This document shows, piece by piece, positions 30,763-47,600 of a DNA stretch of 64,000 bases; positions within the stretch are counted from its first letter, which is position 1, and each line of letters starts with the position of its first letter. The stretch comes from Terriglobia bacterium (GTDB lineage: Bacteria > Acidobacteriota > Terriglobia > Terriglobales > Acidobacteriaceae): contig JAIQEU010000002.1 in the NCBI GenBank assembly GCA_020073665.1, positions 1 to 64,000 of the forward strand. The letters run 5' to 3'. The translations under genes were made by a program, and so were the position numbers. The notes below the pieces were generated by a model. The model was not told the DNA's origin and ran no database searches. It saw only the letters and a list, made by a program, of their open reading frames with translations.

Positions 30763-30971
30763 GGCTTGTACTGCGGCCGAGTATCCACCCGCGTGCTTAT
30801 GCTGGAGCCGGGTTTTGTCGGTCTAATTTCCACGCGCAGTAGTACCTACCTAGCAAACACTATCCCGTCACACACTTTGTTAAGGTGAGATGAACTCTGC
30901 CTGAGGTTCAGTGTGCCCAGGCAGGTTCCGGCACAACTGCGTTTAGGCCGCGAGCAGGAGGGAACTTGGCA

Positions 30972-31322
30972 ATGACGCCGCACGATACTCTCGTCCGTTC
31001 GGATGCAGTGGTTTCCCGCCTGATTGGCGGAGACACGCTGGTGGTTCCGGTGCGGGGCGGCGTTGGCGATTTGGCTTCTATCTACAGCTTCAATGCGGTG
31101 GGCACGACCATTTGGGGAGCCCTGGCTCAGCCCACCAGCATGCAAGAACTGGCGAGCCTCATTGAACGGGAATACGAAATCGGACGGGACCAAGCTGAGC
31201 AAGACCTGGCACTCTTCCTGGGGGAGATGTGTTCCGCAGGGCTGATCACCGTCAAGAGTAGCTGTGAAGCGGCGGCCCTGATGCCGGAGCCAGGTGATGT
31301 GACCACGACAAACTCATGGTGA
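30972..31322 (+). CDS. PqqD-like RiPP recognition element protein
   Basis: The 116-residue protein has the PqqD winged-helix pattern. After an N-terminal strand pair (VVSRLIGGDTLVVPVRGG) comes the conserved SIYSFNAVGTTIWGAL, followed by helices with LASLIEREYEIGRDQAEQDLALFLGEM and a final strand AGLITV. Such proteins bind the leader of a precursor peptide and present it to the modifying enzyme. The ATG at 30972 is preferred to the TTG at 30966 because AGGAGGG (30956-30962) is nine bases before it. It overlaps the radical SAM gene by seven bases. No pqqA, pqqB, pqqC or pqqE partner set is present, so a role in PQQ synthesis is unlikely. Confidence 0.88.
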   Translation: MTPHDTLVRSDAVVSRLIGGDTLVVPVRGGVGDLASIYSFNAVGTTIWGALAQPTSMQELASLIEREYEIGRDQAEQDLALFLGEMCSAGLITVKSSCEAAALMPEPGDVTTTNSW

Positions 31323-32596
31323 ATGTGGCTACATATTCCGATTTCAGCCGTTCCATCCACCAGCATTATTCTGGCCAGCGCGCCGCCCTGGAAGCTTCTA
31401 TCGAGGTGACGCGCCGCTGTCCGCTCGAGTGCCTGCACTGCTACAACAATCTCGACATGGCGGACCAGCAGGCCCGAAGCCATGAGCTCAGCAAGGAAGA
31501 GCACTTCCAACTACTCGACCAGTTGTCCGAGTTAGGTGTTTTCTGGCTGCTCTACACCGGCGGGGAGATATTTGCACGCAAGGATTTTCTCGAAATTTAC
31601 ACGCAGGCGAAAAAGAAGGGCTTTCTGGTCACCCTGTTTACCAATGGGACGCTGATCACGGAAAAGACTGCCGACTACCTGCGCGAGTGGCCGCCCTTTG
31701 CGATTGAGATCACCCTGTACGGTCGGACCAGAGAGACCTACGAAGCTCTGACCGGAATCCCCGGCAGTTATGGCCGTTGCTTGCGGGGAATCAAGTTCCT
31801 GCGCGATCGCGGGCTTCCGCTGAAGCTCAAGACCGTTGCTACCACGGTGAACCGGCACGAAGTGCTGAGCATGAAAGAGTTTGCGGAGCAGGAACTGGGG
31901 GTTGATTTCAAGTTCGATTCGCTGATTAATCCCCGGATCGACTGTTCGCAGAGCCCCCTGGGGGTGCGCCTTTCTCCCGAAGAAATCGTGGCCCTCGATC
32001 TGCATTCGCCCAAGGTCGCAGCAGAATACAAGCAAGCGGCCGAACGGGATTTCGCGCGTCCGCCGGTCCTAGGAAATGTGGAAACCGTGTACGGCTGCGG
32101 CGGGGGCATGAAGTCGTTCGCCATCGACCCGTATGGCCACATGACGATTTGTGTGTTGTCTCACCAGGAGAGCTACGACATCCGTTCGGGTAGCGTGAGG
32201 CAGGGCTGGGACCAATTTCTCTTGCAAGTTCGCAATCGCAAGCGCAAGACAATTTCCAAGTGCGTCAGTTGCCGGCTGCATTCCCTGTGCAGTATGTGCC
32301 CAGCCAATGGTGAACTGGAAAACGGAGACCCCGAGTCTCCAGTTGACTTCCTGTGCGAGGTGGCGCACCTGCGCGCTGCCGCCCTGGGGTTGGAAGTCCC
32401 GCAGCATGGAGCGTGCGAGTATTGCGCCGGCGGGCTGCACCATCCCGCCATGATGGAATCGGCGCAGCGGATCATCTCCAAAGAAATTGATGTAGGGCAA
32501 TGGACGAGCCCTGAGGTTCTTCTTCCCATCCTGAACAATCCGGGTGTGGCTTCAGAAGTGGGGTGCGGTGGCTGTGGAGGGCCGTCCCATCAGTGA
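31316..32596 (+). CDS. Radical SAM/SPASM peptide-modifying enzyme
   Basis: The 426-residue protein binds the radical SAM cluster through CPLECLHC (Cys35, 39, 42), followed by LLYTGGEIF and FTNGTLIT as expected for the family. A C-terminal SPASM-type region carries further Cys residues: YGCGGGMKSFAIDPYGHMTICV, CVSCRLHSLCSMC and FLCE. These would hold auxiliary iron-sulfur clusters. After SPASM there is an additional tail with CEYC and a terminal CGGCGG, which is unusual. Enzymes of this kind form thioether, carbon-carbon or epimerised products on ribosomal peptides. The start overlaps the PqqD-like gene, and the three-Cys precursor gene begins 25 bases after its stop, so the precursor is the likely substrate. 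Confidence 0.92.
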   Translation: MVNVATYSDFSRSIHQHYSGQRAALEASIEVTRRCPLECLHCYNNLDMADQQARSHELSKEEHFQLLDQLSELGVFWLLYTGGEIFARKDFLEIYTQAKKKGFLVTLFTNGTLITEKTADYLREWPPFAIEITLYGRTRETYEALTGIPGSYGRCLRGIKFLRDRGLPLKLKTVATTVNRHEVLSMKEFAEQELGVDFKFDSLINPRIDCSQSPLGVRLSPEEIVALDLHSPKVAAEYKQAAERDFARPPVLGNVETVYGCGGGMKSFAIDPYGHMTICVLSHQESYDIRSGSVRQGWDQFLLQVRNRKRKTISKCVSCRLHSLCSMCPANGELENGDPESPVDFLCEVAHLRAAALGLEVPQHGACEYCAGGLHHPAMMESAQRIISKEIDVGQWTSPEVLLPILNNPGVASEVGCGGCGGPSHQ

Positions 32597-32621
32597 GGAA
32601 CATGGAGGGAGAGCAATCCCA

Positions 32622-32798
32622 ATGACCGAAGAACCCAACGAGTCGGTAAAGCGAAAGACATATGATTCGCCACGACTGGTGGTGATCAGCTTGCGCCCGG
32701 AGGAGGCAGTGCTGGGACACTGCAAGAACCCCTCGAGCTCGGGGCCGGTGGCTTCTGTCTGTACGATGGTTGGCCCATGCCAGACGCCAGGGTCTTAA
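32622..32798 (+). CDS. Probable RiPP precursor peptide, 58 residues, three Cys
   Basis: A short gene with GGAGGGAGA about ten bases before the ATG encodes 58 residues. The N-terminal half is charged (MTEEPNESVKRKT) and leads into YDSPRLVVISLRPEEAVL, a leader-like segment. The rest (LGHCKNPSSSGPVASVC, then TMVGPCQTPGS) is small-residue rich, with Cys at 34, 47 and 53. A Y-x-x-P-x-L motif in the leader is the kind of element that PqqD-like recognition proteins bind in lasso peptides. The gene lies between the radical SAM enzyme and the kinase and overlaps the latter by 22 bases. The EEAVLxxCK pattern recalls precursor-like peptides next to other radical SAM genes, but I cannot name a characterised family. 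The cleavage site is unknown; just before or after GH34C is a guess. Confidence 0.75.
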   Translation: MTEEPNESVKRKTYDSPRLVVISLRPEEAVLGHCKNPSSSGPVASVCTMVGPCQTPGS

Positions 32799-33748
32799 AC
32801 GCACGACATCCAGTCTTTCTTGACAGAATGCTGACTGCAGCTACGCATCTACCGCTGAACCATCAGTTGCCCGGCTGGCACCGCTCCTGCGTGCGGGTGG
32901 GAGAGGTGTCGATCGGTCTGAATGCTCGCGACCGCCAGGACATCCGGTTGAGTAGGGAACTGGACGCCTTCCAGATCGAATCGTCCGCCTGCGATATCGA
33001 GCTCAGCATCGAGAGGGTAGAACGGCTGCGGCGTCTGCCGGGAAAGAAGCTCTTCGATTCCGGCTCGTTGTGGACGCTCTATGAAAGTGGATCGGACCTC
33101 ACATTTGACTTCACCACGCCGGTGTTGGGTCGTCATCCCTACAAGCGGCTCGTGGTGAATCGCGAGTTCTCTGTCGCACGCCTGCTGCTGAACCGCGAGC
33201 ATCTTTTGGAGACTGACGAAGTCTACCCGCTGGAATATCCCCTCGACGAGTTGCTGGTGACCCACTGGCTGGCGTGTGGGCGGGGCGTCGAGGTCCACGG
33301 TTGTGGATTGGTGGACCACGAAACCGGAGGCCACCTCTTTCTTGGCCATTCAGGAGAGGGCAAGAGTACCACCACGTTGCTGTGGAAGGCGCTGCGGGAT
33401 GTCCGCATTCTGAGCGACGATCGCATCATCCTGCGCGAACAGGCGGGCAGGTTCTGGATGCACGGGACTCCATGGCACGGCGACGCGGGTTTTGCTCTTG
33501 CGGACAGCTCAACGATCAGCCGGATTTTTTTCCTGGAGCACGGCCCCGAGAATAAAATTCAGCCGCTTCCCAAGGCTCGGGCGGTAGCGGAACTGTTCGT
33601 CCGCTGCTTTGTGCCGTTTCACGCGCCAGAGCCACTCGACTCCACGCTTTGCTATCTCCACAAAATTGCAAACTCTGTTCCTTGCTATCTCTACCGGTTT
33701 ACTCCCGACGCCAGCGCGGTGGAGACGATTCTCAACTTCTATGGCTGA
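32777..33748 (+). CDS. HPr-kinase-like P-loop protein of the RiPP operon
   Basis: The 323-residue protein has an N-terminal beta-rich domain and, from about residue 170, a P-loop domain with Walker A GHSGEGKSTTT (Lys196) followed by ILSDDRIIL. GTPWHGDAGF and ISRIFFLEHG follow in the order expected for HprK/P-like kinases. Relatives occur in lasso-peptide and PqqD-linked clusters, where some phosphorylate the precursor peptide. Whether this one does so cannot be seen. The 32777 start lies inside the precursor gene; an ATG at 32829 is an alternative, and neither has a strong ribosome binding site, which suggests translational coupling. Its stop codon overlaps the start of the giant protease gene. 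Confidence 0.85.
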   Translation: MPDARVLNARHPVFLDRMLTAATHLPLNHQLPGWHRSCVRVGEVSIGLNARDRQDIRLSRELDAFQIESSACDIELSIERVERLRRLPGKKLFDSGSLWTLYESGSDLTFDFTTPVLGRHPYKRLVVNREFSVARLLLNREHLLETDEVYPLEYPLDELLVTHWLACGRGVEVHGCGLVDHETGGHLFLGHSGEGKSTTTLLWKALRDVRILSDDRIILREQAGRFWMHGTPWHGDAGFALADSSTISRIFFLEHGPENKIQPLPKARAVAELFVRCFVPFHAPEPLDSTLCYLHKIANSVPCYLYRFTPDASAVETILNFYG

Positions 33749-36700
33749 AGAGAAGGCACATACCGAAGTGTTTGGCGCTCTGAGCCAGGCTTTGTTGTCA
33801 GAAGGAATGGGTTTCCGCTTCCAGGCCCGGGGCACGAGCATGGAGCCAGCGATTCGGGATGGCGACATTCTTCACGTAACCCCGGTCCGCACCGAAGTAC
33901 TGCGCAAAGGCGACATTGTGTTGTTCGCTGATGGTCCGCGCTTCCGGGCCCACCGGTTGGTTCGGGTCGATCACCAACGCGAGGTGTTTCTTACTCGAGG
34001 AGATGCGGGGACCGAAATGGATAGTCCACTGCACGCGCAACAGATTCTGGGAATAGTAGTGGCCAAACACGCCGCCGCGAACGCGGCACCGATTCCGCTC
34101 CGCGGCTTTCGCGCTGGAATGCAGCATCACACCCGGCAAATGCGCTCGTCCCTTTCACGGGCGGTCCGGCGCATGGCCGTCCTGCGGAGCCTCCATGCGC
34201 TAAGTCGATCCATTTTTCGCAAGCCCGTTCTTGGTCTCCTTCTGCTGCCTTTACTCTTCGCCCCTTCGATGCTGCACGCGCAGGTCACGGTCGACGCCAA
34301 AGCTTCCGCGGCGGCTAGGCTGAATACGGGCACCGGCACGACCACGGTCACCGTTCCTATCACCACGGGCGCTGGTACCAATCGACTTCTGGTGGTCGGG
34401 GTCTCGATCAACCGTCAAGGAAACCCGGCCGTAGCAGTGAGCGGGGTTACGTCTAACGGCGTGCTGCTGACCTTGGCCGGCGCGCAGAACGATCCCACCG
34501 GTATTCGCCGAGTAGAGATGTATTACCTGGTCAACCCGGCTTCGGGGCTGAACAGCGTTATAGCCACATTTTCGGGGGTGAACGGGATCAGTGTTGGAGC
34601 CGCGGTTGGCGCGATTACGTTTTCCGGCGTCGATCAGAGCATACCGTTCCGGCCTTTCGCTGGGGCCAATGGTGCCTCCGGGACGAACCCATCGCTGACG
34701 GTACCCAGTGCTGCGGGTGAACTGGTGCTTGATACCGTGGCGGTGACCGGCAACCGCACCGTTACCGCGGGGGCGGGGCAGACGCAGCAGTGGACTCTGA
34801 GAACGGGAAACGCGGCCACCGATGTCCGCGGAGCAGGATCGACCGCGCCGGGCGCGGCTAGCGTCACCATGACGGACACGGTGGGCGGCGGTGGTTCCAG
34901 CTGGGCGCAGGGTGTGATGTCCATACGGCCGCCAGGGGTTTCCGTCGATACCACGACGTCTACGGGAACCACGGTCACGGGTGTGGCCCCGACGATTACG
35001 CTGGCGCACACCACGGTGGGAACCAACCTCGTTATGGTGGTCGGCGTCTCCATCAACATCAGCAACAACACGGCGGCTACCGTCAGCGGCGTGACCTACA
35101 ATGGCGTGGCCCTTACTCGCGCGGGAGCCCACAACGACGCTGGGAACTCTCGCAGGGTGGAAATCTGGTCTCTCACCGCTCCCGCGATCGGGACGAACAA
35201 CGTTGTAGTCACGCTCGCCAATCCTGGAGGGGCGGCAACCCTGGGAGTGGTTGTTGGCGCGACCACCTTGGTCGGTGCGGATCAGACCTCTCCGTTACGA
35301 TCCTTCGTCTCGGCCGATGGGGCAGCCGGCAACGTTGCCTCGCTGAACGTCCCCAGCGCTTTTAGTGACGTGGTGCTGGACACTCTCGCCACTGGTGGTG
35401 ACCAGACCGTCACCGCCTTTGGCGCCACTCAGACCGCGGTGTGGAACTTGAACTCGGGGGGCACGGGGACTCCGCCCAACGTTTTCGGGGCCGGTTCCAC
35501 GCGGGCGGGGGCGCCCAGCGTCCCCATGTCGGAAACTCTCAGCGGAACTTCGAACTGGTCCGTGGGCGCGGTCTCGGTGAGGCCTTTACAGGCGGAAGTC
35601 GCGGTAAGTGTGGTCGGCAACTCGACCTTCTTCCCGGCAAATCTCACCTACACCATTACCACCACCAACAACGGTCCTTCAAGCGCAACCGGGGTGACGC
35701 TGACCGATACGCTTGCAGCCGGCCTCACGTTTGTCTCAGCCACACCCAGTCAGGGCTCCTGCTCGGGCAATGTTCCTCCGATTACTTGTCCGCTGGGCAC
35801 GCTTGCGCCTGGAGCTTCGGCCACGGTGACGGTGGTGGTAACGCCATTGACCAGCGGCGGCTATCCGAACACGGCGTCGGTGGTGGCGGCTCAGCCGGAT
35901 TTCAATACCGGGAACAACTCCGCCATGGGCATCGCTTACTCGCAGTCCACCGCCTGTGGCACTCCTGCCAAGAACGGCGATGGCGGGGTCTTGACCGGGA
36001 CCATCAACACCTATTTTCCAGGGACAGTGACTGCGGCTGCGGGCGCAAAGGCGATCACTGTGGGCGCCTCTATCGGTTCCGCCACGCCGATTGCCATCGG
36101 TGACCTGCTGCTGGTTATCCAGATGCAGGACGCCCTTATCAACTCTACGAACACTTCGGCCTATGGTGATGGCGGCAGCGGATCGGGCTCCACCAACCTC
36201 AACAATAGCGGCGTCTATGAATTCGTCCTCGCCACCAGCGCGTTGGCGGTTGGCGGCGGGACGGTCAATATCTCCGGCACCGGCCCCACCGGCGGGTTGC
36301 TGTACACCTACACCAATGCGGCAGCCACGGCTGTGCAGGGACAACGAAAGTTCCAGGTGGTGCGGGTGCCGCAATTCTCCAGCGCAACCCTGAGTTCAAC
36401 GCTGGTTGTTCCCGCATGGAATGGCACCGCGGGCGGCATCTTTGCCCTTGACGTGGCTGGCATCCTGAATCTGAACAGCGCCACCGTCAGTGTGGATGGC
36501 CTTGGCTTCCGCGGCGGCGCCGGCATGCAATTGAATGGTGGTGTAGGCGGGGCCAATAGCGATTTTCGGCAAACCGCACCCGCCGCATACACCGGTACAG
36601 TGGTCAACGGAGTGGATGCCCCTAAAGGTGAAGGCATAGCCGGCACTCCGCGCTGGGTGGAATCGGGAAATACGTTTCTCGGTACCGGAGTGGAAGGATA

Positions 36701-39700
36701 TCCCAATGGCAGCATGGGTCGCGGCGCCCCAGGAAATGGCGGCGGCGGCGGCAACGATGCGGATCCAACGGCCAATGACGAAAACGCCGGCGGCGGTGGC
36801 GGTGGCAACGGCGGCGCGGGCGGCTTGGGTGGCGACGCCTGGAACGCAAACTTGAGCGTAGGCGGACTCGGTGGTGCGGCTTTTCCGGCGACGGTTGGCC
36901 GCATTGTGATGGGCGCTGGTGGCGGTGCCGGCACCCGTAACAATAGCGACGGCGACAATCGCGCCAGCAGCGGCGCTGCCGGCGGCGGTATCGTCATCAT
37001 TCGTGCGGATGGCCTGACCGGGGCCGCAACCATCACGGCCAACGGAGCCGCAGCGTACAACGGCACCCTCAATGATGCCGGAGGTGGTGGTGGCGCGGGA
37101 GGCAGCATCATCGTAGTTTCCGCTACCGGCGGCGAAAGCGGACTGACCATTGCCGCCCATGGCGGCCGTGGCGGAGACGCTTGGGACTCTCAGCCGTTCA
37201 GCTTGGCCGACCGGCACGGACCGGGAGCGGGCGGCGGCGGCGGTGTGGTCCTGCTCTCCGGCGCTCCCGCCAGCACGGATGTCAGCGGCGGCGCCAGCGG
37301 AACCACCCTGAACCCTGGCGTACCGTACGGCGCTACTGCCGGCTCGGCTGGCGTCAGCGTTACTAACGCCCAGTTGCCCACCTTGCCGGGATCTCGCTCG
37401 GGTGCGGAGTGTACCTCCGACCTGACCGTCAATAAGACCCATAGCGGAAGCTTTGCCCGCGGTGCCACCGGGACCTTCACCATCACAGTGAACAACATCA
37501 GCTTGAATCAGCCCACCAGCGGGATCGTCACCATGACCGATGTTCTGCCGGTAGGCGTAGTTCCCACCGTAGCGTCTGGCACCGGCTGGGCCTGCCCGAT
37601 TGCCGGCCAGAAGGTTACCTGCACGCGCGCGGATGCTCTCGCGCCGGTAAGCAGCTATCCCGTCATCACCATTACTGTCTCGGTTGCCCAGTCCGCGCCG
37701 AACAGCGTGACCAACACCGCCACCGTGGCTGGAGGAGGCGAACTGAATGGGACCAACGACACGGCAACGGACACGGTGACCATTACCTCCAGTTCCGATC
37801 TGTCCATTACCAAGTCGGGTGCGCCCAACCCGGTCAAGCAAGGGCAGACGCTCACCTACACGCTGGTGGTGACCAATAAGGGACCAACCGACGCGACGGG
37901 AGTGAGCGTGACAGACACGCTGCCCATCCAGGTATCGTATGTGTCAGCCACCCCGACCCAGGGGAGTTGTTCGCAAGCGGGCAGAACCGTGACTTGTGCG
38001 CTGGGTAACATCAGCAATGGGGGCACGGCTACCATCACCATCGTGGTAACGGCAGTAACGCCGTCCCAAGCCATCAACACTGCATCGGTATCTGGAACTC
38101 AGCCCGATCCCGTGCCCGCCAACAATACCGCGACCCAGGTCACGATCATCACCTTCCCCACCAGCGTGCGGCTGGAGTCTTTTACCGCCGCCAACAGCGG
38201 CGGCCAGGTCACGCTCTCCTGGAGCACGGGCAGTGAGCAGCGGAATCTCGGTTTCAATGTGTATCGCGAAGAGAACGGCGAGCGGGGGCGGATGAATCCG
38301 TCGCTAATTGCCGGCTCCGCCCTGATCATGCGCGGAGGCCTGCCCCAGCACGCTGCAAAAACCTACGCATGGATCGATCGCACTCCGTCCGCAGGCAGCA
38401 CGTACTGGCTGGAAGACGTCGATCTGGACGGTACTCGCACCCTGCACGGTCCAGTTTTTCCGCAGGCCGATCTGGCAGTATCCACGGCGGCGCCTGCCAA
38501 AATGATTGGCGAGTTAAACAGTGCCACAACAGCTGGCGACGCCGATTCGTCGTCAAGTCATGAAATCGAAGACCGGATCCAGCCGCTGACCAGCCGGTCT
38601 GATGTGCAGCAGTTCCAATTCCAGTTGGCAGCCCATGCCGCCGTGAAGATCATGGTGACCCATGAAGGATGGTATCGGGTCACGCAGCCTCAACTGGTGG
38701 CTGCCGGCTTGGATGCTGCCGTGGATCCCCGGTTCCTCGAGCTCTTCGCCGAAGCTATCGAACAACCTATCCGTATCACCGGAGCGACCGATGGCGCGGG
38801 CGGCTTCGGTCCGCAAGCCGCCATCGAATTTTACGGGCGTGGTCTGGACACGCCGTACTCCGACCAGCGGGCCTACTGGCTGGTGTCGGGCCACCAGCCG
38901 GGCCAGCGGATTCGCCAGTGGGACAGCTCGGGTGATGGCGGACAGATACCGCAGAGCTTCCCGCAGACGGTGGAGTTGAAGCAGCGCACCACCTACTTTG
39001 CAGCGCTGCTGCGCGACAATACCGACAACTTCTTCGGGGCCCTGGTCACCGCCACTCCGGTGGATGAGACCATCAATGCTCCCGGGGTCGCAGCCTCCGC
39101 CACGGACGATGTGAAACTGCGCGTGGTGCTGCAAGGTGTGACCCAGGCTGTTCCTCACCAGGTCGCGGTAACGCTGAACGGCGCTTCACTCGGGAACGTG
39201 AATTTCACGGGCGAGAGCGAAGGCGATGCCGAGTTCCGCATTCCGCCCGGCCAGTTGCTGGAAGGCGCCAACACCGTCACCCTCACCGCGCTGGCCGGCG
39301 ACACCGACATCAGTCTGGTCGACTATCTGAAGCTGCACTATTCCCGCACCTACACTGCCCAGTTTGACCACCTGAAGTTCACTGCCGACGCCGGCGACCA
39401 TGTCACGGTGACGGGCTTCAACCAGGTTCCCACGCGGCTGCTCGACATCACCGACCCATTGCAGCCACTGGATCTAACGGTGCAGAGCCATACTGAGGAC
39501 GGAAAGTTTGTGCTCGACGCCAAGGTGCCGTGGCAAGTCCCAGGCACCCACACCCTGGTGGCGGTGGCCGACAATGCAATCAAGCCGCCGTTCGCGGTAC
39601 TGAAGAATCATCCTTCGACCTGGCACCGCGCCCAACCAGGCGCCGACGAGGTCATGCTCACCGCGTCCTACTTTGCCGATCAACTTGCGCCCCTGGTGCA

Positions 39701-40718
39701 GTTGCGGCAAAGCCAGGGTCAGTCGGTGGCGGTGGTTCGAGTTGAGGACTTGTACGACGAGTTTAACTTTGGTGAAAGAAGCCCGTACGCAGTGAAGAAT
39801 TTCCTGGTAAGCGCCACTGGTAACTGGCAGAAGAAACCACGCTACCTGCTGCTGATGGGCGATGCCTCGGTCGATCCGCGCAACTATCTCGGTTTTGGCT
39901 ACTTTGATTTCGTACCCACCCGGATCATCGCAACCACGCTGATGAAGACCGCTTCCGACGATTGGTTCTCCGATCTCGCCGACACCGGTTTTGCCCAGAT
40001 CGCCACGGGACGCCTGCCAGTGCGCACTACGGACGACGCCACCACGGTTGTGAACAAGATCGTCAACTACGAAAAAGGTTCCGCCCCCGGCCCCTGGACC
40101 AGCCAGGCGCTGATCGTGGCCGACGTGGATGATCCCTTCGTCAGCTTCACCCAGGAGGCGCAATCGGTGGAGACGTTGCTGCCTCCCACGATCGCGGTCA
40201 CGGATGTCTTCGCCACCGATCTGGATGCCGGCACGGCCCGGGCTGAAATCCTGGCGGGCATCAACAGCGGGAAATTGCTGGTGAACTACGACGGCCACGG
40301 TGCGGTAGAGGTGTGGTCAGGGGAGGACCTGCTGGACGACAACAGCGCGGCTGGGTTGACGAATGGCGGGCAGTTGCCCCTGTTCGTCATCATGAATTGT
40401 CTCAATGGATTCTTCCACGATGTCTACACTCAGAGCCTGGCGGAGGCGCTGCTGTTGTCGAAGAACGGCGGCGCGGTAGCGGTCTGGGCTTCTTCCGGGT
40501 TGACTTCGCCTCAGCCCCAGTTGCTGATGAATCAGAAGCTCACCAACTTCCTGTTCCAGCAACCGGCGCCTGCACTGGGAGACGCGGTCAAGAACGCGAA
40601 GGCGAACATTGACGATCCCGACGCGCGGGCCACCTTCATCCTGTTCAGCGACCCGCTGCTGCACCTGCGGCGCCCGGGATCAACCAGCGTAGAGCGCAGC
40701 CGCCCGGTGGGCCAGTAA
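33741..40718 (+). CDS. S26-type peptidase fused to a secreted DUF11/Gly-rich/C25 protease
   Basis: This 2325-residue product has no close analogue that I know. Residues 1-110 are an S26/S24-like peptidase with Ser33 in GTSMEPAIRDGD, His71 in RAHRLV and Asp88 in TRGDAG, the Ser/His form found in SipW and Sec11 signal peptidases. A basic stretch and a hydrophobic helix (about 161-176) follow. Outside the membrane are a duplicated 205-residue beta domain (182-615), DUF11 domains (about 617-730, 1227-1350 and 1352-1470), an extremely Gly-rich region (about 980-1175), an FN3-like domain (1474-1590) and a C-terminal C25 gingipain-like domain. In the last, His2186 (YDGHG) and Cys2220 (MNCLNG) are spaced as in gingipains. 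The ATG at 33741 overlaps the kinase stop. Internal ATGs near 34120-34190 could produce the secreted part separately. Confidence 0.82.
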   Translation: MAEEKAHTEVFGALSQALLSEGMGFRFQARGTSMEPAIRDGDILHVTPVRTEVLRKGDIVLFADGPRFRAHRLVRVDHQREVFLTRGDAGTEMDSPLHAQQILGIVVAKHAAANAAPIPLRGFRAGMQHHTRQMRSSLSRAVRRMAVLRSLHALSRSIFRKPVLGLLLLPLLFAPSMLHAQVTVDAKASAAARLNTGTGTTTVTVPITTGAGTNRLLVVGVSINRQGNPAVAVSGVTSNGVLLTLAGAQNDPTGIRRVEMYYLVNPASGLNSVIATFSGVNGISVGAAVGAITFSGVDQSIPFRPFAGANGASGTNPSLTVPSAAGELVLDTVAVTGNRTVTAGAGQTQQWTLRTGNAATDVRGAGSTAPGAASVTMTDTVGGGGSSWAQGVMSIRPPGVSVDTTTSTGTTVTGVAPTITLAHTTVGTNLVMVVGVSINISNNTAATVSGVTYNGVALTRAGAHNDAGNSRRVEIWSLTAPAIGTNNVVVTLANPGGAATLGVVVGATTLVGADQTSPLRSFVSADGAAGNVASLNVPSAFSDVVLDTLATGGDQTVTAFGATQTAVWNLNSGGTGTPPNVFGAGSTRAGAPSVPMSETLSGTSNWSVGAVSVRPLQAEVAVSVVGNSTFFPANLTYTITTTNNGPSSATGVTLTDTLAAGLTFVSATPSQGSCSGNVPPITCPLGTLAPGASATVTVVVTPLTSGGYPNTASVVAAQPDFNTGNNSAMGIAYSQSTACGTPAKNGDGGVLTGTINTYFPGTVTAAAGAKAITVGASIGSATPIAIGDLLLVIQMQDALINSTNTSAYGDGGSGSGSTNLNNSGVYEFVLATSALAVGGGTVNISGTGPTGGLLYTYTNAAATAVQGQRKFQVVRVPQFSSATLSSTLVVPAWNGTAGGIFALDVAGILNLNSATVSVDGLGFRGGAGMQLNGGVGGANSDFRQTAPAAYTGTVVNGVDAPKGEGIAGTPRWVESGNTFLGTGVEGYPNGSMGRGAPGNGGGGGNDADPTANDENAGGGGGGNGGAGGLGGDAWNANLSVGGLGGAAFPATVGRIVMGAGGGAGTRNNSDGDNRASSGAAGGGIVIIRADGLTGAATITANGAAAYNGTLNDAGGGGGAGGSIIVVSATGGESGLTIAAHGGRGGDAWDSQPFSLADRHGPGAGGGGGVVLLSGAPASTDVSGGASGTTLNPGVPYGATAGSAGVSVTNAQLPTLPGSRSGAECTSDLTVNKTHSGSFARGATGTFTITVNNISLNQPTSGIVTMTDVLPVGVVPTVASGTGWACPIAGQKVTCTRADALAPVSSYPVITITVSVAQSAPNSVTNTATVAGGGELNGTNDTATDTVTITSSSDLSITKSGAPNPVKQGQTLTYTLVVTNKGPTDATGVSVTDTLPIQVSYVSATPTQGSCSQAGRTVTCALGNISNGGTATITIVVTAVTPSQAINTASVSGTQPDPVPANNTATQVTIITFPTSVRLESFTAANSGGQVTLSWSTGSEQRNLGFNVYREENGERGRMNPSLIAGSALIMRGGLPQHAAKTYAWIDRTPSAGSTYWLEDVDLDGTRTLHGPVFPQADLAVSTAAPAKMIGELNSATTAGDADSSSSHEIEDRIQPLTSRSDVQQFQFQLAAHAAVKIMVTHEGWYRVTQPQLVAAGLDAAVDPRFLELFAEAIEQPIRITGATDGAGGFGPQAAIEFYGRGLDTPYSDQRAYWLVSGHQPGQRIRQWDSSGDGGQIPQSFPQTVELKQRTTYFAALLRDNTDNFFGALVTATPVDETINAPGVAASATDDVKLRVVLQGVTQAVPHQVAVTLNGASLGNVNFTGESEGDAEFRIPPGQLLEGANTVTLTALAGDTDISLVDYLKLHYSRTYTAQFDHLKFTADAGDHVTVTGFNQVPTRLLDITDPLQPLDLTVQSHTEDGKFVLDAKVPWQVPGTHTLVAVADNAIKPPFAVLKNHPSTWHRAQPGADEVMLTASYFADQLAPLVQLRQSQGQSVAVVRVEDLYDEFNFGERSPYAVKNFLVSATGNWQKKPRYLLLMGDASVDPRNYLGFGYFDFVPTRIIATTLMKTASDDWFSDLADTGFAQIATGRLPVRTTDDATTVVNKIVNYEKGSAPGPWTSQALIVADVDDPFVSFTQEAQSVETLLPPTIAVTDVFATDLDAGTARAEILAGINSGKLLVNYDGHGAVEVWSGEDLLDDNSAAGLTNGGQLPLFVIMNCLNGFFHDVYTQSLAEALLLSKNGGAVAVWASSGLTSPQPQLLMNQKLTNFLFQQPAPALGDAVKNAKANIDDPDARATFILFSDPLLHLRRPGSTSVERSRPVGQ

Positions 40719-40993: not shown

Positions 40994-41629
40994 ATGGGAG
41001 TTCAAGAGCGCCGCAAACGCGAACGCAGTGAGACTCGCGACAAGATTCTCGATGCCGCGCGCGAGTTGTTCGTCACCGAGGGCTATGACGGTGTTTCCAT
41101 GCGCCGCGTGGCCGAGAAGATTGAATACTCTCCCACCGCCATTTATGTTCACTTCGCCAACAAGGAAGAACTTTTCCTCGAGCTTTGTCACTCTGATTAC
41201 CATCGCCTGGCCGAGTCTTTCGTCAAGCTGGCGCAAATTCCAGATCCCGTAGAGAAGCTGCGGCAGATCGGGCGCGCCTATATTGAGTTCGGGCTCAAGA
41301 ACCCGAATCACTACCGCATGATGTTCATGACCGCCCATCCGCACCTCCCCGGCATGGTTGAGGAGGAGATGGGGAAGGGCAATCCCGAGGAAGACGCCTA
41401 CGAATTCCTTCGCATGACGGTGGAAGAGGCGATGCGTGCGGGGGCCTTCCGCGACGACCTTACCGATGCGGACATGATTGCGCAGACCTTGTGGGCCGCG
41501 AGCCACGGCGTAGTTTCCCTGCAGATCGCCAAGTGTGACGACAACTGGGTGCCATGGTGCCCGGTGGAGAGACGCACCGACGTGATGCTCGACGGCATGT
41601 TGAGTGGACTGTTGAAGAGGGAGCGGTAA
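40994..41629 (+). CDS. TetR/AcrR-family regulator of the ABC exporter operon
   Basis: The 211-residue protein has the TetR helix-turn-helix at about 12-60 (RDKILDAARELFVTEGYDGV, RVAEKIEYSPTAIYVHFANKE) and a helical C-terminal domain. The start at 40994 follows AGGATACGAGG and fits the domain length. It is only three bases from the permease gene, so it is the first gene of a four-gene operon and probably represses it through the inverted repeats at 40945-40971. The ligand is unknown. Confidence 0.93.
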   Translation: MGVQERRKRERSETRDKILDAARELFVTEGYDGVSMRRVAEKIEYSPTAIYVHFANKEELFLELCHSDYHRLAESFVKLAQIPDPVEKLRQIGRAYIEFGLKNPNHYRMMFMTAHPHLPGMVEEEMGKGNPEEDAYEFLRMTVEEAMRAGAFRDDLTDADMIAQTLWAASHGVVSLQIAKCDDNWVPWCPVERRTDVMLDGMLSGLLKRER

Positions 41630-41632
41630 GCC

Positions 41633-42757
41633 ATGCCTCCTCTCGCGCGGCGCAATCTTTTCCACGACAAGATCCGGCTCACGGTGACGCTGACTGGCAT
41701 TGTCTTCGCGGTCGTCCTGATCGTGGTGGAACTCGGCCTGTTCGTAGGCTTCACGGTCACCACCTCCAGCCTTATTGACAAGGCTGATGTCGACCTGTGG
41801 ATCGTTTCCAAGCACACGCCGTATATCGAGCAGGGCTCCACATTCTCCGAGCGCAAGTTGTACGAGGTTCTGGCTACGCCAGGTGTTGCATCGGCGGACA
41901 AATATATCGTTCGCTGGGCACAGTGGAAGAGAAAAGACGGCGCCGAGGTAGGCGTGCAGGCCGTCGGATTCAATCCCTACACCGGAATCGGAGGCCCGTG
42001 GAACGTGGTGCAGGGAAACGTACAAGACCTGAAGACTCCCGACGCGGTGATGGTGGATGAACTATACAAAGAAAAGCTGGGCGTTACCCGCGTCGGCGAA
42101 GTCTTCGAGATCAACGGCCGCCGCGCCCGCGTGGTGGGCTTCACGCGCGGCATACGCGCCTTTACCACCACGCCCTACGTGTTTACCAGCTTCAAGAATG
42201 CCCAGGGATACTGCCAGCTGGGCGAAGACCAGACCTTGTTCATCCTGGTGCGGGCACTTCCCGGAGCTGATCTGAAGACGCTGCGGCACAACATAGAGAG
42301 CCGCCTGCGCAACGTGGACGCCTTGCCCAAAGCCGAGTTCAGCAACATGACTCGTTTCTACTGGATGTTCACCACCGGTGCGGGCGTCGCGGTGCTGATC
42401 GCGGCCTTGCTCGGCCTGGTGGTCGGCGTGGTAGTAGTTGCACAGACCATCTACGCCACCACCATGGACCACATCCGCGAGTTCGGGACCCTGAAAGCCA
42501 TGGGCGCGGCCAACGGCTACATCTATCGCGTCATCATCACTCAAGCTGGCATCAGCGCGCTTATCGGATATGGGCTGGCGATGCTCGTCAGCGTTTTCAT
42601 TGTTCGTGCCAGCGAGAGCGGTGGCGCAGCCATTCTGCTGCCTTGGCAGCTGGCGGTGGGCATCTTTTTCCTGACCATGCTGATGTGCGTGAGCGCAGCC
42701 ATCGTTTCCATTAACAAAGTGACCAGCCTGGATCCCGCCATGGTGTTCAAAGGCTGA
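41633..42757 (+). CDS. ABC exporter permease, DevC/MacB-FtsX type
   Basis: The 374-residue protein has one N-terminal membrane helix (LTGIVFAVVLIVVELGLFVG) and a periplasmic domain of about 220 residues with short MacB-like strands. Three more helices lie near 250-275, 300-325 and 335-360. This is the four-helix FtsX/MacB topology. GMxHxREFxTLKAMGA-like coupling sequence is seen as MDHIREFGTLKAMGA, and SLDPAMVFKG closes the protein as in DevC relatives. It works with the ATPase and HlyD-type adaptor encoded next, forming an exporter similar in composition to DevBCA of cyanobacteria, which secretes glycolipid. The cargo here is not indicated. Confidence 0.9.
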   Translation: MPPLARRNLFHDKIRLTVTLTGIVFAVVLIVVELGLFVGFTVTTSSLIDKADVDLWIVSKHTPYIEQGSTFSERKLYEVLATPGVASADKYIVRWAQWKRKDGAEVGVQAVGFNPYTGIGGPWNVVQGNVQDLKTPDAVMVDELYKEKLGVTRVGEVFEINGRRARVVGFTRGIRAFTTTPYVFTSFKNAQGYCQLGEDQTLFILVRALPGADLKTLRHNIESRLRNVDALPKAEFSNMTRFYWMFTTGAGVAVLIAALLGLVVGVVVVAQTIYATTMDHIREFGTLKAMGAANGYIYRVIITQAGISALIGYGLAMLVSVFIVRASESGGAAILLPWQLAVGIFFLTMLMCVSAAIVSINKVTSLDPAMVFKG

Positions 42758-42767
42758 GGAGAGAACT

Positions 42768-43517
42768 ATGCAACCGGTGATTTCTGTCCGCGGAGTTAAC
42801 AAGGTATACAGCGAAGGCGCCAGCCAGGTGCCGGCTCTGTTTGACATCGATCTCGACGTGGCGCCGGGCGAGGTGGTGCTGCTCATGGGGCCATCAGGTA
42901 GCGGCAAGACCACGTTGCTCTCGATCATGGGTTGCATCCTGAAAGCGACCTCCGGCAGCGTCCGCATTGCCGGCGCTGAAGTCGCTGGACTCAGCGAGAA
43001 GCAATTGCCGGGCATTCGCCTGGAGCACATTGGTTTCGTGTTTCAGGGTTTTAACCTTTTCCCGACCTTGAGCGTCGGAGAAAACGTAGAGCTTGCACTG
43101 GACCTGAAGGGTATTGGCGGCGCAAAAGCCAAGCATGAGGCGCGTCGCCTGCTGGAGCAAGTAGGGTTGCTGTCCAAGTACGACACGTTCCCCACCGACT
43201 TGAGCGGCGGCCAGAAACAGCGTGTCGCCATTGCGCGAGCGCTAGCCGGATCTCCAGGCGTGATTCTGGCTGACGAGCCGACCGCAGCGCTCGATTCGCA
43301 CACCGGACGCAGCGTCATGCAGATGATGCGGGACCTCGCGCACCAGCGGGGAAGGGCAGTGGTGGTCGTAACCCACGACAACCGCGTGCTCGAGTTCGGG
43401 GACCGCATTGTACGCATGGAAGACGGAAGGATCGTCACCGCCGCTGACGAAGTCTCCAAGATCCCGCCCCAGTGGGCGATTGCCACCGAAGTCCAGCCGC
43501 CCAGCCAGGCGTGCTGA
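42768..43517 (+). CDS. ABC exporter ATP-binding protein, DevA/LolD/MacB type
   Basis: The 249-residue ATPase shows Walker A GPSGSGKTT, a Q-loop in VFQGFNLFPTLS, signature LSGGQKQR, Walker B VILADEPTAALD and the switch His in VVVTHDNRVL. Length and motifs match the MacB/LolD/DevA branch that pairs with FtsX-like permeases. It follows the permease gene by ten bases, with a GAGGAG ribosome binding site before the ATG, and precedes the adaptor gene. It should energise the exporter from the cytoplasmic side. Confidence 0.95.
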   Translation: MQPVISVRGVNKVYSEGASQVPALFDIDLDVAPGEVVLLMGPSGSGKTTLLSIMGCILKATSGSVRIAGAEVAGLSEKQLPGIRLEHIGFVFQGFNLFPTLSVGENVELALDLKGIGGAKAKHEARRLLEQVGLLSKYDTFPTDLSGGQKQRVAIARALAGSPGVILADEPTAALDSHTGRSVMQMMRDLAHQRGRAVVVVTHDNRVLEFGDRIVRMEDGRIVTAADEVSKIPPQWAIATEVQPPSQAC

Positions 43518-43553
43518 TTTTATGACCAGCGAGAACTTGTGAGGAGATTGGGC

Positions 43554-44600
43554 ATGAAGAAAAAAGCTCTTTTCGGATTTATCGTCATCGCACTCACGGC
43601 TGCCACCGTAACCTTGATCTGGGGAAACACGGCGTCGTCCAGCAAATCAGAGGCCCCACCACGGGCTCAGCAGACTGATTGGCTGGTGGCCGCCCCCGGC
43701 CGCGTGGAGCCGAGTTCGGAAGACATCAAGCTGGGCGCCGAAATTAGTGGCAAGCTGAAGACGGTGCTGGTGGAGGAAGGGGATGCGATCCGGCGCGGTC
43801 AGGTCTTAGCTGAATTCGAAAACAGTGATTACCGCGCGCAAGTAGAGTCGGCGCAGGCTGAGGTCAAGCAGAAGGAAGCCGAACTGCGCAAGGTGATCAA
43901 CGGCGCCCGCAGCCAGGAACGCCGGGAAGCGCTATCTTCGGTGCACGAAGCCGAGGCGGTCATGAAAAACGCCGAAGCCGAGATGCTCCGCCGACAGAAG
44001 CTGTACGCCGCCGGAGTGATCTCCCGCGAAGAAGCTGACCGCTATGCCAAAGAGTACGACGTGGCCAAGGCCCGCTACGACGAGAAGGTCCAGAACCATG
44101 CACTGATCGACGAAGCCGCGAGGGAAGAAGACCGCTCCATGGCGGAAGCCAACCTGGCGAGCGCGATCGCTCAGCTCGATGCGGCCCAGGCACTGCTGGC
44201 CAAGACTTATGTGCGTGCCCCCATCGATGGCACGGTGCTGCGCAAACATCACCGGGCTGGTGAAAGTGTCTCCAACGGCTCGAACACGCCGGATCCGATC
44301 TTTACCATCGGCGACAAACGCGCCTTGCGCGTCCGCATGGACGTGGACGAAGCCGACGTCAGCAAGCTGGCGATGGGGCAGAGCGCCTATGTGACCGCCG
44401 ACGCCTACGGCAACAAGAAATTCTGGGGACACGTCGTCCGCGTCGGCCAGGAGTTGGGCCGCAAGAATGTCCGCACCGACGAGCCCACCGAGCGAGTTGA
44501 CACCAAGATTCTGGAAACCTTAGTGCAGTTGGATGAAGGCGTGGAACTGCCTGTCGGCTTGCGGGTAGACGCTTTCATTGTCGGCGGAAACCAGAAATGA
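43554..44600 (+). CDS. HlyD/DevB-type periplasmic adaptor of the ABC exporter
   Basis: The 348-residue protein has an N-terminal membrane anchor (LFGFIVIALTAATVTLIWG), a lipoyl half-motif (GAEISGKLKTVLVEEGDAIRRG), and a long coiled-coil hairpin (about 95-205) rich in Ala, Glu and Arg. The second lipoyl half (YVRAPIDGTVLRKHHRAGESV) and a beta-barrel domain follow. It should link the permease to an outer-membrane channel, but no TolC-like gene is present in this operon. The ATG at 43554 follows GAGGAG (43541-43546) at a normal distance and is preferred to the upstream GTG at 43539. Confidence 0.93.
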   Translation: MKKKALFGFIVIALTAATVTLIWGNTASSSKSEAPPRAQQTDWLVAAPGRVEPSSEDIKLGAEISGKLKTVLVEEGDAIRRGQVLAEFENSDYRAQVESAQAEVKQKEAELRKVINGARSQERREALSSVHEAEAVMKNAEAEMLRRQKLYAAGVISREEADRYAKEYDVAKARYDEKVQNHALIDEAAREEDRSMAEANLASAIAQLDAAQALLAKTYVRAPIDGTVLRKHHRAGESVSNGSNTPDPIFTIGDKRALRVRMDVDEADVSKLAMGQSAYVTADAYGNKKFWGHVVRVGQELGRKNVRTDEPTERVDTKILETLVQLDEGVELPVGLRVDAFIVGGNQK

Positions 44601-44643: not shown

Positions 44644-47600
44644 TTAGAAGTCGAAGCGCAACGCCAGCTGCGTGGTACGGTGACCACCATCAGCTCCCGC
44701 CGTGCTCCAGGTTGTTCTCGACTTACCGAAGTCCGCGCTTGCCAAGTTAGAACTTCCACCGATCCCAGCGGTCGGATTTATGAAGTTCGGGTGGTTGAAA
44801 AGGTTAAAGAAATTAGCCTGGAAGGTGATCCCAGCACGTTCCGTAAGTTTGAACGTCTTGGTCAAGTTCATGTCGACATCAGCCGAACCTGGCCCGAAGA
44901 GGGTATTGCGGCCGATAGATGGGTTACACCACAGACCACCATTGACCGAGGCGGGACAAGTAAAGCTTCCCCACTGATTGCGATCAACTAATCCGTCTGC
45001 GGGACTGCCATGCAGGAACGTGCTCGCGAGGGGGGCGAGCGGAATAATGCGATCCGTCCGGTACCCGTCCTTGTTCAAGTCCGTTCCCTGAGAGTTAAAG
45101 GGTGTCCAAGGATGTCCCGAGGCCACCGCAATAATGGAGTTGATGCCCCAGCCACCGATCCAACGATTCTGCTTCAGGAAGGGCAGATCGTAGCTGAGTG
45201 TGGCAACGAAGCGCTGGCGGGTGTCGAAATCCGCCGGGCCGTAATCCACCTTGGGGTTCATATTGTCTGTGGGACGCAGACCGGCGCCGTTGTTGAAGAG
45301 ATCGCTGGCGTCGTCCAAGGTCTTAGAGTAGGTGTAGTTGACGTTGAAGCTCAACCCCGCAGCGTAGTTCTTCCTGACAGTCAACTGCAATGCATGGTAG
45401 TTCGATGCAAAGCCGTTACTGCGGAAGTTGTCAGCTCCAATGTTGGGGTTGGGCCGGCATGAAACATCCGAAGTGGGATCACCAGGAATGCAGGGCGGAT
45501 TGCCGAATGCTCTGCGCCCATCGAAGGTGTTGATGTCCCGGAGCCCGAGTAGCTTGTGGCCGAAGGTGCCTACATATTCTGGCTCAAAGACGTAACCTTT
45601 GGCGAACTCCCATTGCACACCAAAATGCGCCTGCTCGTAATACGGAGTGACGACATTTTGATCCATGTGACGTGGGTTTGGCAGTGGCGTAAACGCCGGG
45701 TTGTTGTATTGCGCGACCGACGTGAACGGGTAGGTCACGAGACCCGGCGTCGACAGCGGACCAGCCGTTGCGCCGTTGCGGAGCAGCCCGATCTGATTGT
45801 CGGAAAAGAACGGTGGGTTGAAGCGGATGTTTTCGAAAACGTTGTTGTAGATGCGGTCGTTCATTATTCCTGCTCCGGCTCGCACTACAAATTTCTGGGT
45901 ACCGAAAACATCCCAAGCGAATCCAACACGAGGTGAGAAGTTGTTGGTGTCCTTGTTCCAGATTTCGGCATTCCTGACTTGGAATGTCGCAGTCGCCACT
46001 CCCGCATAAAACGGGTTGTTGGTGGGGAAGAAAGCGTTCGAACTGGCAGTCGGGATTGGGGTCACTGGCACGCCGAAATACAGGTTCGAATCGATTCCCG
46101 GTTTGAAGTTGTGCGGCGGGCCAAAATATTCCCATCGCAGGCCGAGGTTTACCGTCAAGCGGTTGCTGATGCGCCAGTCATCCTGAGCAAATGCATCGAA
46201 CTCATTGGCCCGGTAACCGCGGTAGAAATCAGGAGTCTGGTTGGTGGTTGGGTTAACCGCGGCCGAAACGTAGTATGCGCCGCCGTAGTATGCACCGCCG
46301 GTCAGTTGACGATCGACTTCGTCGCTGAAAGCCAAGTCGGTTAGAGTGTCCTCAATACCCCACGGAGAGATGGTTTGGAACTGGTCATTGTGGAAGCTCG
46401 AGCCATTGCGCGTCCGGCGATACTCGCCGCCGAACTTGAAGCTGTGCTTGCCATGAACCAGCGACATCGTGTCGAGGTATTGGAACTGGTTGTCGGTGAA
46501 GAACTGCGGGGTGCCGGTTGCCAGGCCCAGGTCAACCGAAAGGCCGTCCGCAGTGTAGTAGGCTGGGGTTCCGAATGTCCCCGCAGGGGCCGGGAAGTTA
46601 AGCGTGTGCCGCAGGTAACTTGCCTTGAACGTATTCAGTAAGGTTGGTGTGAACGTATGGTTCCAGGTCAGACCTAGATTCTGTCCACGGCCGTCCTGAA
46701 TGTACTCCGGCCCGATCAGATTGTCGCCGCCGATGTACTTATCCATGTAGGTAGCATCCTGGAATAGGTACACAGCAGAGAGGGTGTCTTTGTCGCTGAA
46801 GCGATGGTCGAACTTTGCACTCCAGCGTGCCTCGTTCTGCGACGTGGGGTCGTTTGCGGTGACGCTGCCATACACCGGCACCGGGTAGACGAGACCCAAT
46901 GCCACGTTGGTCGGAGCGCTGGGCCCAGTCCAAATACCCTTGGCGAAGTTGCTGAAATTCGATGTTGCCAACGGATAGTTAAGCGCGGGGTTGGAATGTA
47001 GCGCGCTAAAGATTGGCCCAATCGTGCTGGACAACGGGAATGCGCCCGGACACGCCGCGCCTTGTGCAACGACGCAGACACCGTAGGTTGACCCGGCGGG
47101 CAGCGGGCTGCCGGGCGCATAGGCACCTGTGCCTTCCTGGTATTGTTCGAATTGGCCGCTCTGTACAAAGTCCAGGAACTGCTGAGTGGTGGCTGTGCCG
47201 GTCAAAGGATAAGACTGGCGCACGCGATGGATTTCAGCGGTGCCGTAAAAAAACGTCTTGTCTTTTACGATCGGGCCGCCGATGGATCCGCCGAACTGGT
47301 TGCGTACAAGGTGATCCTGGATGCCGCCGCGATTGGAGAAAAAGTCGTTCGCGGTCAACGCCTGGATGCGGTTGTACTCGAAAGCGGAACCGTGCCAATT
47401 ATTGGTGCCGCTCTTCAGCACGGTGTCGGTGATGAAACCGCCGCCTTTGCCGTACTCGGCAGAGTAGCTGTTGGTGATGACGCGATATTCTTGAATGGCG
47501 TCAGGCGAAATCGAAGTCGCGGCTCCACCTTTGTCGTAGAACGAGATCTGGCCGCGTCCTGCCTGGCCTTGCTCGTTGTTGTCGGTGCCGTCCACCAGGT

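Follow-up and report, generated by a model that had tools for sequence, protein, structure and literature searches.

What would an operon make that joins the genes of a peptide-modification cassette to a giant protease of the gingipain type, and what would the protease do there? The question is raised by a stretch of 64,000 nucleotides from a Terriglobia bacterium (Acidobacteriota, order Terriglobales; contig JAIQEU010000002.1), hereafter the window, which holds a five-gene operon at positions 30972-40718. This operon is almost certainly a real, conserved cassette of a widespread family of ribosomally synthesized and post-translationally modified peptides (RiPPs) with a single radical S-adenosylmethionine (SAM) enzyme. 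A conserved ribosomal precursor with a leader lies beside a modifying enzyme and a recognition element, as is expected of a RiPP. The C25 (gingipain-type) peptidase encoded by the last gene very probably belongs to the pathway, since within the order it is nearly confined to carriers of the cassette and since it recurs beside related cassettes in other gene orders.

All five genes lie on the + strand, overlapping or closely packed and without internal stops. The PqqD and radical SAM genes overlap by 7 bases, the radical SAM and peptide genes are separated by 25 bases, and the peptide/HprK and HprK/S26 junctions are overlaps of 22 and 8 bases, respectively. The product of the last gene is one protein of 2325 residues, in the order S26-(signal peptide)-DUF11-C25. 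The parts are as follows.

30972..31322, + strand: PqqD-type RiPP recognition element (RRE), 116 amino acids (aa), alternative start TTG at 30966; PF05402, E-value 5.9e-13
31316..32596, + strand: radical SAM/SPASM enzyme, 426 aa; PF04055, E-value 2e-18
32622..32798, + strand: precursor peptide, 58 aa; recognized by an alignment of 18 sequences, its position near the enzyme and its codon diversity
32777..33748, + strand: HprK/PEPCK-fold kinase-like protein, 323 aa; recognized by a conserved motif, an AlphaFold model and fold matches
33741..34100, + strand: S24/S26-like serine peptidase domain, with Ser33, His71 and Asp88 of the fusion; PF00717, 29.5 bits (cut-off 23.3)
34174..34280, + strand: internal signal-peptide-like segment between S26 and the predicted exported part, with a basic n-region, VLGLLLLPLLFAPSMLHA, then Q
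34281..38624, + strand: predicted exported stalk of beta repeats, an AgmC-N-like glycine-rich region (about 35997-37277) and DUF11 repeats; NCBIfam NF047640, 105 bits (under its cut-off of 275), and DUF11 PF01345, E-value 5e-56
38625..40715, + strand: PorU-like region and C25 (gingipain-type) peptidase, with the C25 domain at 39651-40664; PF01364, E-value 7e-77

A conserved cassette and its C25 partner

Relatives of the radical SAM enzyme were collected at E ≤ 1e-30 from 249 genomes of the order, 50 of which contain at least one. Orthologues with 64-78% identity to the window enzyme occur in 18 of the 249 (the window and 17 others), and the next match, setting aside a truncated second copy in G165, drops to 35% identity. 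PqqD, radical SAM enzyme, precursor, HprK-like protein and S26-like domain are all present in each of the 17 other neighbourhoods. A single open frame spans the S26 domain and the exported region in 15 of them; of the other two, L041 has a break in S26, and in L050 (genome G103) S26 stands alone and C25 is absent. An earlier, sequence-only reading of the locus had described five close-packed genes on one strand and an S26-C25 fusion, had inferred a RiPP-type operon, and had suggested a neighbourhood search for the co-occurrence of the five genes and a covarying precursor. Profile searches, and for the kinase-like protein the fold, bear out the identities, and the fusion is a single open frame in the window as in most of these neighbourhoods. 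The search, now run, supports a co-conserved, covarying precursor, so that the refutation the reading had named, homologous loci with a missing or unconserved precursor, did not come about.

A wider scan of GTDB species contigs, from which the best 80 of 94 relatives were kept, returned loci titled Acidobacteria, Myxococcales, Anaerolineales, Nitrospirae, Omnitrophica, Gaiellales and Aminicenantes. PqqD was detected in 76 of these 80 loci and HprK in 74. S26 and C25 share one frame in 33 loci and lie in different frames or open reading frames (ORFs) in 12, and C25 occurs without S26 in 2. In 11 loci the S26 ORF runs off the end of the stretch, in 12 it is closed and C25 is lacking, and in 10, often on short contigs, neither domain was found. 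Some loci of the order set and the wider scan are the same contigs under two names, and the two sets were not added together. S26 and C25 are encoded by separate genes in L110, L113 (titled Thermoanaerobaculia), L114 and L117 (Myxococcales-titled), and in seven loci (L066, L068, L071, L076, L080, L096, L098) both are present with an interrupted frame, through mutation or draft error. Besides the family of the window (family 1), a second family has an enzyme of roughly 30-35% identity and the usual order precursor-S26-HprK-PqqD-rSAM (rSAM, radical SAM enzyme). The genome of the window also carries a family-2 cassette outside the window (G000:C6:272167-277200, L152), whose precursor ends in ...CILNQKRS.

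The precursor of the window comprises a recognition-type motif YDSPRL (residues 14-19), the stretch LRPEEAVLG (24-32), Cys residues at 34, 47 and 53 and a C-terminal GS. It matched no NCBIfam or Pfam family, and none of the three precursors scanned against NCBIfam did; this large family across Acidobacteriota and beyond is not modelled in NCBIfam. A precursor was found near the enzyme in 78 of the 81 family-1 loci (window included), and 76 matches start just past the enzyme gene. Displaced precursors lie 2.1 kb from the enzyme in L075 and on the opposite strand in L112. No precursor match was obtained in L118-L120, where the sequences of L119 and L120 break off inside the enzyme gene. The Desulfobacterales-titled L118 holds a radical SAM enzyme and S26, with PqqD, HprK and a recognisable precursor not found, and an upstream ORF there resembles asparagine synthetase by eye. 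The leader reads Y..P and then mostly LRPEEAVLGxCK, and RPEEAVLGxCK is identical in 56 of the 81 loci, in which its Arg is written with 4 codons, Leu with 6 and Gly with 4. Because these residues are fixed while their codons vary freely, the precursor is a selected protein. The core varies, yet all 18 aligned precursors keep the three Cys and the C-terminal Ser. By eye, the presence of C25 showed no clear correlation with the Lys that follows the first Cys. Candidate short frames unlike precursors were dropped by eye, including two in L181 and one each in L183, L184 and L188. A precursor was not found in L151, L197, L198, L205 and L206, nor in L178, L180, L184, L185, L187, L188 and L225.

The enzyme carries a CxxxCxxC motif at residues 35-42, SPASM Cys residues at 261, 279, 316, 319, 325, 328 and 347 and additional pairs C367/C370 and C417/C420. 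The SPASM profile scores 14.6 bits, under its cut-off of 21.5, and all these Cys residues are invariant across the 18 aligned orthologues. A role in heme, pyrroloquinoline quinone (PQQ) or mycofactocin synthesis was rejected, as the NCBIfam matches to AhbD, NirJ2 and mycofactocin enzymes fall far under their cut-offs and both the precursor and the cassette context oppose it. A role in anti-phage defence was rejected as well, the viperin matches being weak and confined to the generic radical SAM core. In four other loci (L184, L185, L188, L189) radical SAM and HprK-like domains share one open frame, and these cassettes hold three radical SAM matches, PqqD and S26.

The C25 half, which the sequence-only reading had under-called, is the striking part of the operon. 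It belongs to peptidase family C25 (PF01364, 259.6 bits against a cut-off of 23). The catalytic His (NYDGHG) and Cys (MNCLNG) are present in all 33 sequences that reach both positions, and 15 of 48 lack at least one position in the examined stretch. At E ≤ 1e-20, C25 occurs in 18 of the 249 order genomes: 17 encode both C25 and the orthologous enzyme, one the enzyme only, one C25 only (a partial match) and 230 neither. This co-occurrence (Fisher 3.7e-24 per genome; 7/0/1/54 by genera, 1.6e-8) is uncorrected for shared ancestry. Across the phylum, C25 was detected in 135 of 396 genomes and the enzyme (E ≤ 1e-60) in 48, of which at least 18 carry a C25 on the same contig no more than 20 kb away, with G309 and G547 additional. 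Related cassettes place C25 first, last or in the middle: C25-PqqD-rSAM-pep-HprK (pep, precursor), S26-PqqD-pep-rSAM-HprK-C25, PqqD-rSAM-HprK-C25-S26 and C25-rSAM-pep-PqqD-HprK. It also lies beside two cassettes of one Anaerolineales genome (L124, L225), and in L112 it remains grouped with the precursor and HprK, with PqqD-rSAM oriented the other way. That C25 is kept with the cassette through repeated rearrangement argues for a shared function. Its link to the pathway comes from genomics; its reaction we infer. A second C25 protein, in a frame of 1900 residues, was seen at G118:C91:34441-35454 (L173); its genome has one orthologous match for the radical SAM enzyme.

The kinase-like protein and the S26-like domain

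The kinase-like protein contains H174, a P-loop GHSGEGKST (190-198, with K196) and D214-D215. Its sequence match to HprK is weak (Hpr_kinase_C, 12.8 against 33.3 bits; HPr kinase 1ko7 in the PDB, E 0.81), and the assignment is held up by the fold of the AlphaFold model (predicted local distance difference test score 91.1) together with the His, P-loop Lys and Asp-Asp residues. The model ranks PEPCK (Foldseek E 2e-6; VIA Z 13.7, root-mean-square deviation 5.2, 248 residues aligned) over HPr kinase (E 1.5e-4), in Foldseek and VIA lists that do not exclude other folds. Membership of the HPr kinase/PEPCK superfamily is supported by this predicted fold. Among 75 aligned kinases the catalytic motif is HKDD in 66 (window included), HKDE in 7, HKED in 1 and truncated in 1.

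According to passages of the review PMC9266682, the kinase PadeK phosphorylates its precursor at the C-terminal Ser, clusters that include the kinase conserve this Ser, and PadeK-type kinases need a His-Lys-Asp-Asp motif. By this analogy, we lean slightly towards phosphorylation of the C-terminal Ser58 by the kinase-like protein. Ser ends 77 of the 78 distinct C-terminal 30-mers of the 81 family-1 loci, the exception, L124, ending in Pro. This count takes only matches near the enzyme (plus L112); the unrestricted family-1 pattern gives 81 distinct strings over 136 loci, 79 of them ending in Ser, the surplus being two L182/L183 strings (both ending in Ser and counted elsewhere) and a chance string in L100, 8.4 kb off and ending in Arg. 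All 28 distinct family-2 precursors end in Ser, behind a penultimate Ser, Val, Asn, Thr, Ala, Leu, Arg or Ile; with additional sequences the count is 30 of 31, the exception being a broken piece of 27 residues in L137. In other architectures Ser ends 9 of 9 precursors (L175, L176, L177, L179, two in L186, L189, L182, L183). The sole HKED kinase is that of the Anaerolineales-titled L124, which thus combines an altered first catalytic Asp with a precursor lacking the terminal Ser, a double loss that, as one event, is suggestive only.

Several observations weigh against a terminal phosphoserine, beginning with a kinase that matches HPr kinase only under the Pfam cut-off. The SynChlorMet cassette (NCBIfam ScmC/ScmE/ScmF) is to our knowledge uncharacterised, and the role of its HprK-like protein, as far as we know, is still open; of 247 genomes, 6 have ScmC above its cut-off, with 7 matches in all. 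The SynChlorMet kinases of L232-L236 keep the P-loop and Asp residues, as read by eye, and 0 of 4 SynChlorMet precursors end in Ser (L233-L236 end in Arg, Arg, Ala and Gly). The kinases of L227 (Omnitrophota) and L231 also look intact, and the candidate precursors there end in Gly and Arg, respectively. According to passages of PMC10368454, BsfK phosphorylates Ser3 of the core and not the C-terminus. These cases, along with the ranking of PEPCK over HPr kinase by fold, also make it possible, if less probable than not, that the protein modifies another residue or has another nucleoside triphosphate-dependent role, the terminal Ser being kept for instance for radical SAM recognition or C-terminal attachment. 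Such a role is opposed by the near-invariance of the terminal Ser in separate precursor families with differing neighbour residues, and by the joint loss in L124. A universal rule tying the kinase to a terminal Ser was rejected, since SynChlorMet and other HprK loci break it. Only two HprK-less cassettes have a candidate precursor (L136/L204, which are the same place, and L194), neither ending in Ser and together too few to weigh. Terminal phosphorylation is our best guess for this family and no rule for all HprK-type cassettes, and it provides a one-residue, directly testable prediction for the role of HprK-like proteins in radical SAM cassettes.

Pfam assigns S24 (PF00717, Peptidase_S24/S26-like) to the S26-like domain, which misses the curated cut-offs of sigpep_I_arch (TIGR02228, 40.7 against 51.85 bits), TIGR02227 (17.6 against 47) and SipW (25.5 against 190). 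The Ser and His dyad is kept in 67 of 69 S26 sequences, the other two (L071, L122) being frame-broken. A hydrophobic segment was not found before or within the S26 domain of the window protein. The maximum 15-residue hydropathy in the 105 S26 domains of other loci, taken with about 10 preceding residues, is 1.75. In 47 of 50 long ORFs a segment of at least 1.9 lies no more than 90 residues past S26; among short ORFs, 3 of 55 (L067, L081, L102) have one somewhere after S26, and all three are cut by the contig end. The segment of the window is signal-peptide-like by eye (basic n-region, hydrophobic core, LHA-Q), and a possible internal start at 34174 before it is present in the window and, by eye, not evidently conserved. 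Since no membrane segment precedes or interrupts S26 and the signal-peptide-like segment comes after it, the S26 domain is predicted from sequence to stay cytosolic. The DUF11-C25 part is likewise predicted to be exported, possibly freed from S26 by the general signal peptidase.

Signal peptidases favour small residues at -1 and -3, and the AVLG-x-C of the leader offers them. Whether the S26-like domain is the leader protease, cutting near AVLG, we judge from the sequences to be an even question. What speaks against it is that S26 was not found in the C25 cassettes L111 and L112, where the AVLG-type motif persists, nor within the examined stretches of L175, L176 and L178, and that some S26 cassettes in which C25 was not found still have the motif. 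With the motif kept without S26 or without C25, neither protease is tied to the AVLG site.

The sequence-only reading had proposed an HprK-like kinase, a possibly phosphorylated product, maturation at the membrane by S26 and no transporter of the operon's own. The kinase assignment, below the Pfam cut-off by sequence, is upheld by fold, and phosphorylation is a plausible reading, for which the C-terminal Ser is now a specific candidate. On the whole that reading stands for the RiPP cassette, the phosphorylation and the missing transporter, and gives way on the S26 domain, for which maturation at the membrane is weakened by the predicted cytosolic location.

Possible roles of the C25 peptidase

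Gingipains are gum-disease proteases, and PorU is a sortase-like transpeptidase of type IX secretion. The C25 model aligns with RgpB (Z 40.8), Kgp (Z 36.9) and PorU (Z 22.3, over 564 residues including the region before the catalytic domain).

The proposed pathway has five steps. PqqD would bind the leader via YxxPxL, by analogy with known RREs, and present it to the radical SAM/SPASM enzyme, which would modify the three-Cys core, most likely with Cys thioether cross-links. The HprK/PEPCK-fold protein would then phosphorylate Ser58, as PadeK does on lasso peptides, and the S26-like domain would cut the leader in the cytosol at or near AVLG/xC. Finally, C25, exported behind the internal signal peptide, may serve as a dedicated extracytoplasmic enzyme that processes or attaches the mature peptide. 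We somewhat favour the combination of a RiPP cassette, C25 as its functional partner and at least one of Ser58 phosphorylation and S26 leader cleavage. The direction of the partnership is evenly poised, with about equal reason to accept and to doubt that C25 works on the peptide, as opposed to serving as its client. A broader proposal, less probable than not, is a new RiPP class with a dedicated gingipain/PorU-type caspase-fold peptidase and a radical-SAM-modified peptide with a C-terminal phosphoserine. There, an S26/C25 polyprotein split by the internal signal peptide would couple leader removal stoichiometrically to extracellular maturation or attachment.

The giant C25 protein could instead be the client, with the modified phosphopeptide made in the cytosol and delivered as an inhibitor, propeptide-like regulator or cofactor of a surface C25. 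The tight co-occurrence in the order fits either direction and the exported part is adhesin-like (DUF11, AgmC-like). This arrangement is nevertheless doubtful, because the family-2, L088 and L105/L106 cassettes make similar precursors with no C25 found nearby, and the peptide needs no C25 client in those cassettes. Rather unlikely is a role of C25 as a sortase-like transpeptidase that would anchor either the RiPP or a portion of the giant protein at the cell surface. The long PorU alignment and PorU as the nearest PDB sequence (E 6e-16) point that way, against which stand the missed cut-off of NF033707, the model of the type IX secretion sortase PorU (250 against 420 bits), and a catalytic domain closest to the gingipain RgpB. 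That the C25 gene is a mere passenger, located and fused downstream by chance, is strongly disfavoured and very improbable: C25 is common in the phylum and often away from the cassette, and G103 retains a cassette without it, but within the order it is nearly confined to cassette carriers, it follows the cassette through rearrangements and into Myxococcales- and Anaerolineales-titled loci, and in L112 it stays with precursor and HprK despite the PqqD-rSAM inversion.

For C25 as an extracytoplasmic enzyme of the pathway, a further difficulty is that a cytosolic S26 and an exported C25 demand an exporter for the peptide. No transporter of the cassette's own was seen among the neighbourhoods and flanking groups, which were not annotated one by one. 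Among 20 neighbourhoods, some truncated at contig ends, none held a match to the AcrB-type pump upstream of the operon or to the TetR and MacB-type genes downstream. No flanking gene group is common to more than 12 of 80 loci; close relatives make up most of the largest groups, and one group spans 11 diverse loci. In the window, a TetR regulator, a MacB-type permease, an ABC ATPase and an HlyD protein lie at 40994-44600, 275 bases past the operon, and are unmatched near related operons. Two large proteins with CarboxypepD_reg and an outer-membrane beta-barrel flank the operon at a distance (21713-25540, + strand; 44644-48177, - strand).

As far as literature searches show, this is the first tie of gingipain-type proteases to RiPP maturation. 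In the main text of the RiPP leader-protease review PMC10885120, a term search returned no S26, signal peptidase, C25, gingipain, S24 or LexA, and the only HPr kinase passage in the part of PMC4289311 covered concerns lasso peptides. A pairing of a gingipain-type protease with a RiPP is undescribed among the matches listed from full-text literature, a source with most subscription papers outside it.

Comparison with known systems

The individual parts of the fusion have separate relatives. The C25 part shares the catalytic fold and the His/Cys pair with gingipains and PorU and is preceded by a PorU-like region, whereas here it is fused behind S26 and an internal signal peptide and encoded in a RiPP operon. 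The S26 domain resembles signal peptidase I of the archaeal/SipW type in its Ser-His-Asp residues and its weak profile matches (40.7 and 25.5 bits), and differs in that an N-terminal membrane anchor was not found, in its predicted cytosolic location and in its assignment to S24 by Pfam.

Sactipeptide and ranthipeptide maturases (PapB, AlbA, StsB) likewise are radical SAM/SPASM enzymes beside a Cys-containing precursor. The window differs from them in its separate PqqD protein and in missing their NCBIfam cut-offs by far (PapB 55 against 340 bits, AlbA 59 against 850, StsB 70 against 625).

Two systems come closer. SynChlorMet shares with the window a PqqD-like protein, the HprK-like ScmC and radical SAM enzymes, and an S26-like peptidase in 6 of 7 loci; in 4 of the 7 there is also a short precursor, rich in Cys and bearing a Y..P-type motif. 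It differs in having more than one radical SAM match in 4 of 7 loci, no C25 match in the 7 loci and no terminal Ser in its 4 precursors; the window proteins miss the cut-offs of its models (ScmC 16 against 125 bits, ScmE 89 against 400, ScmF 56 against 400). In L232-L237, where ScmC is over its cut-off, an S26-like peptidase lies near ScmC and links SynChlorMet to the window cassette. Phosphorylated lasso peptide clusters (paeninodin PadeK, ThcoK, SyanK), in the passages describing them, have an HprK-like kinase with His-Lys-Asp-Asp and an RRE protein, and their precursors have a YxxPxL-type leader and a conserved C-terminal Ser, all as in the window. A lasso protease or cyclase was not found in the Pfam scan of the five window products, and the window has a radical SAM enzyme and S26/C25 proteases in their place. 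Gene content relates the cassette to SynChlorMet, and the logic of its kinase relates it to the phosphorylated lasso peptides.

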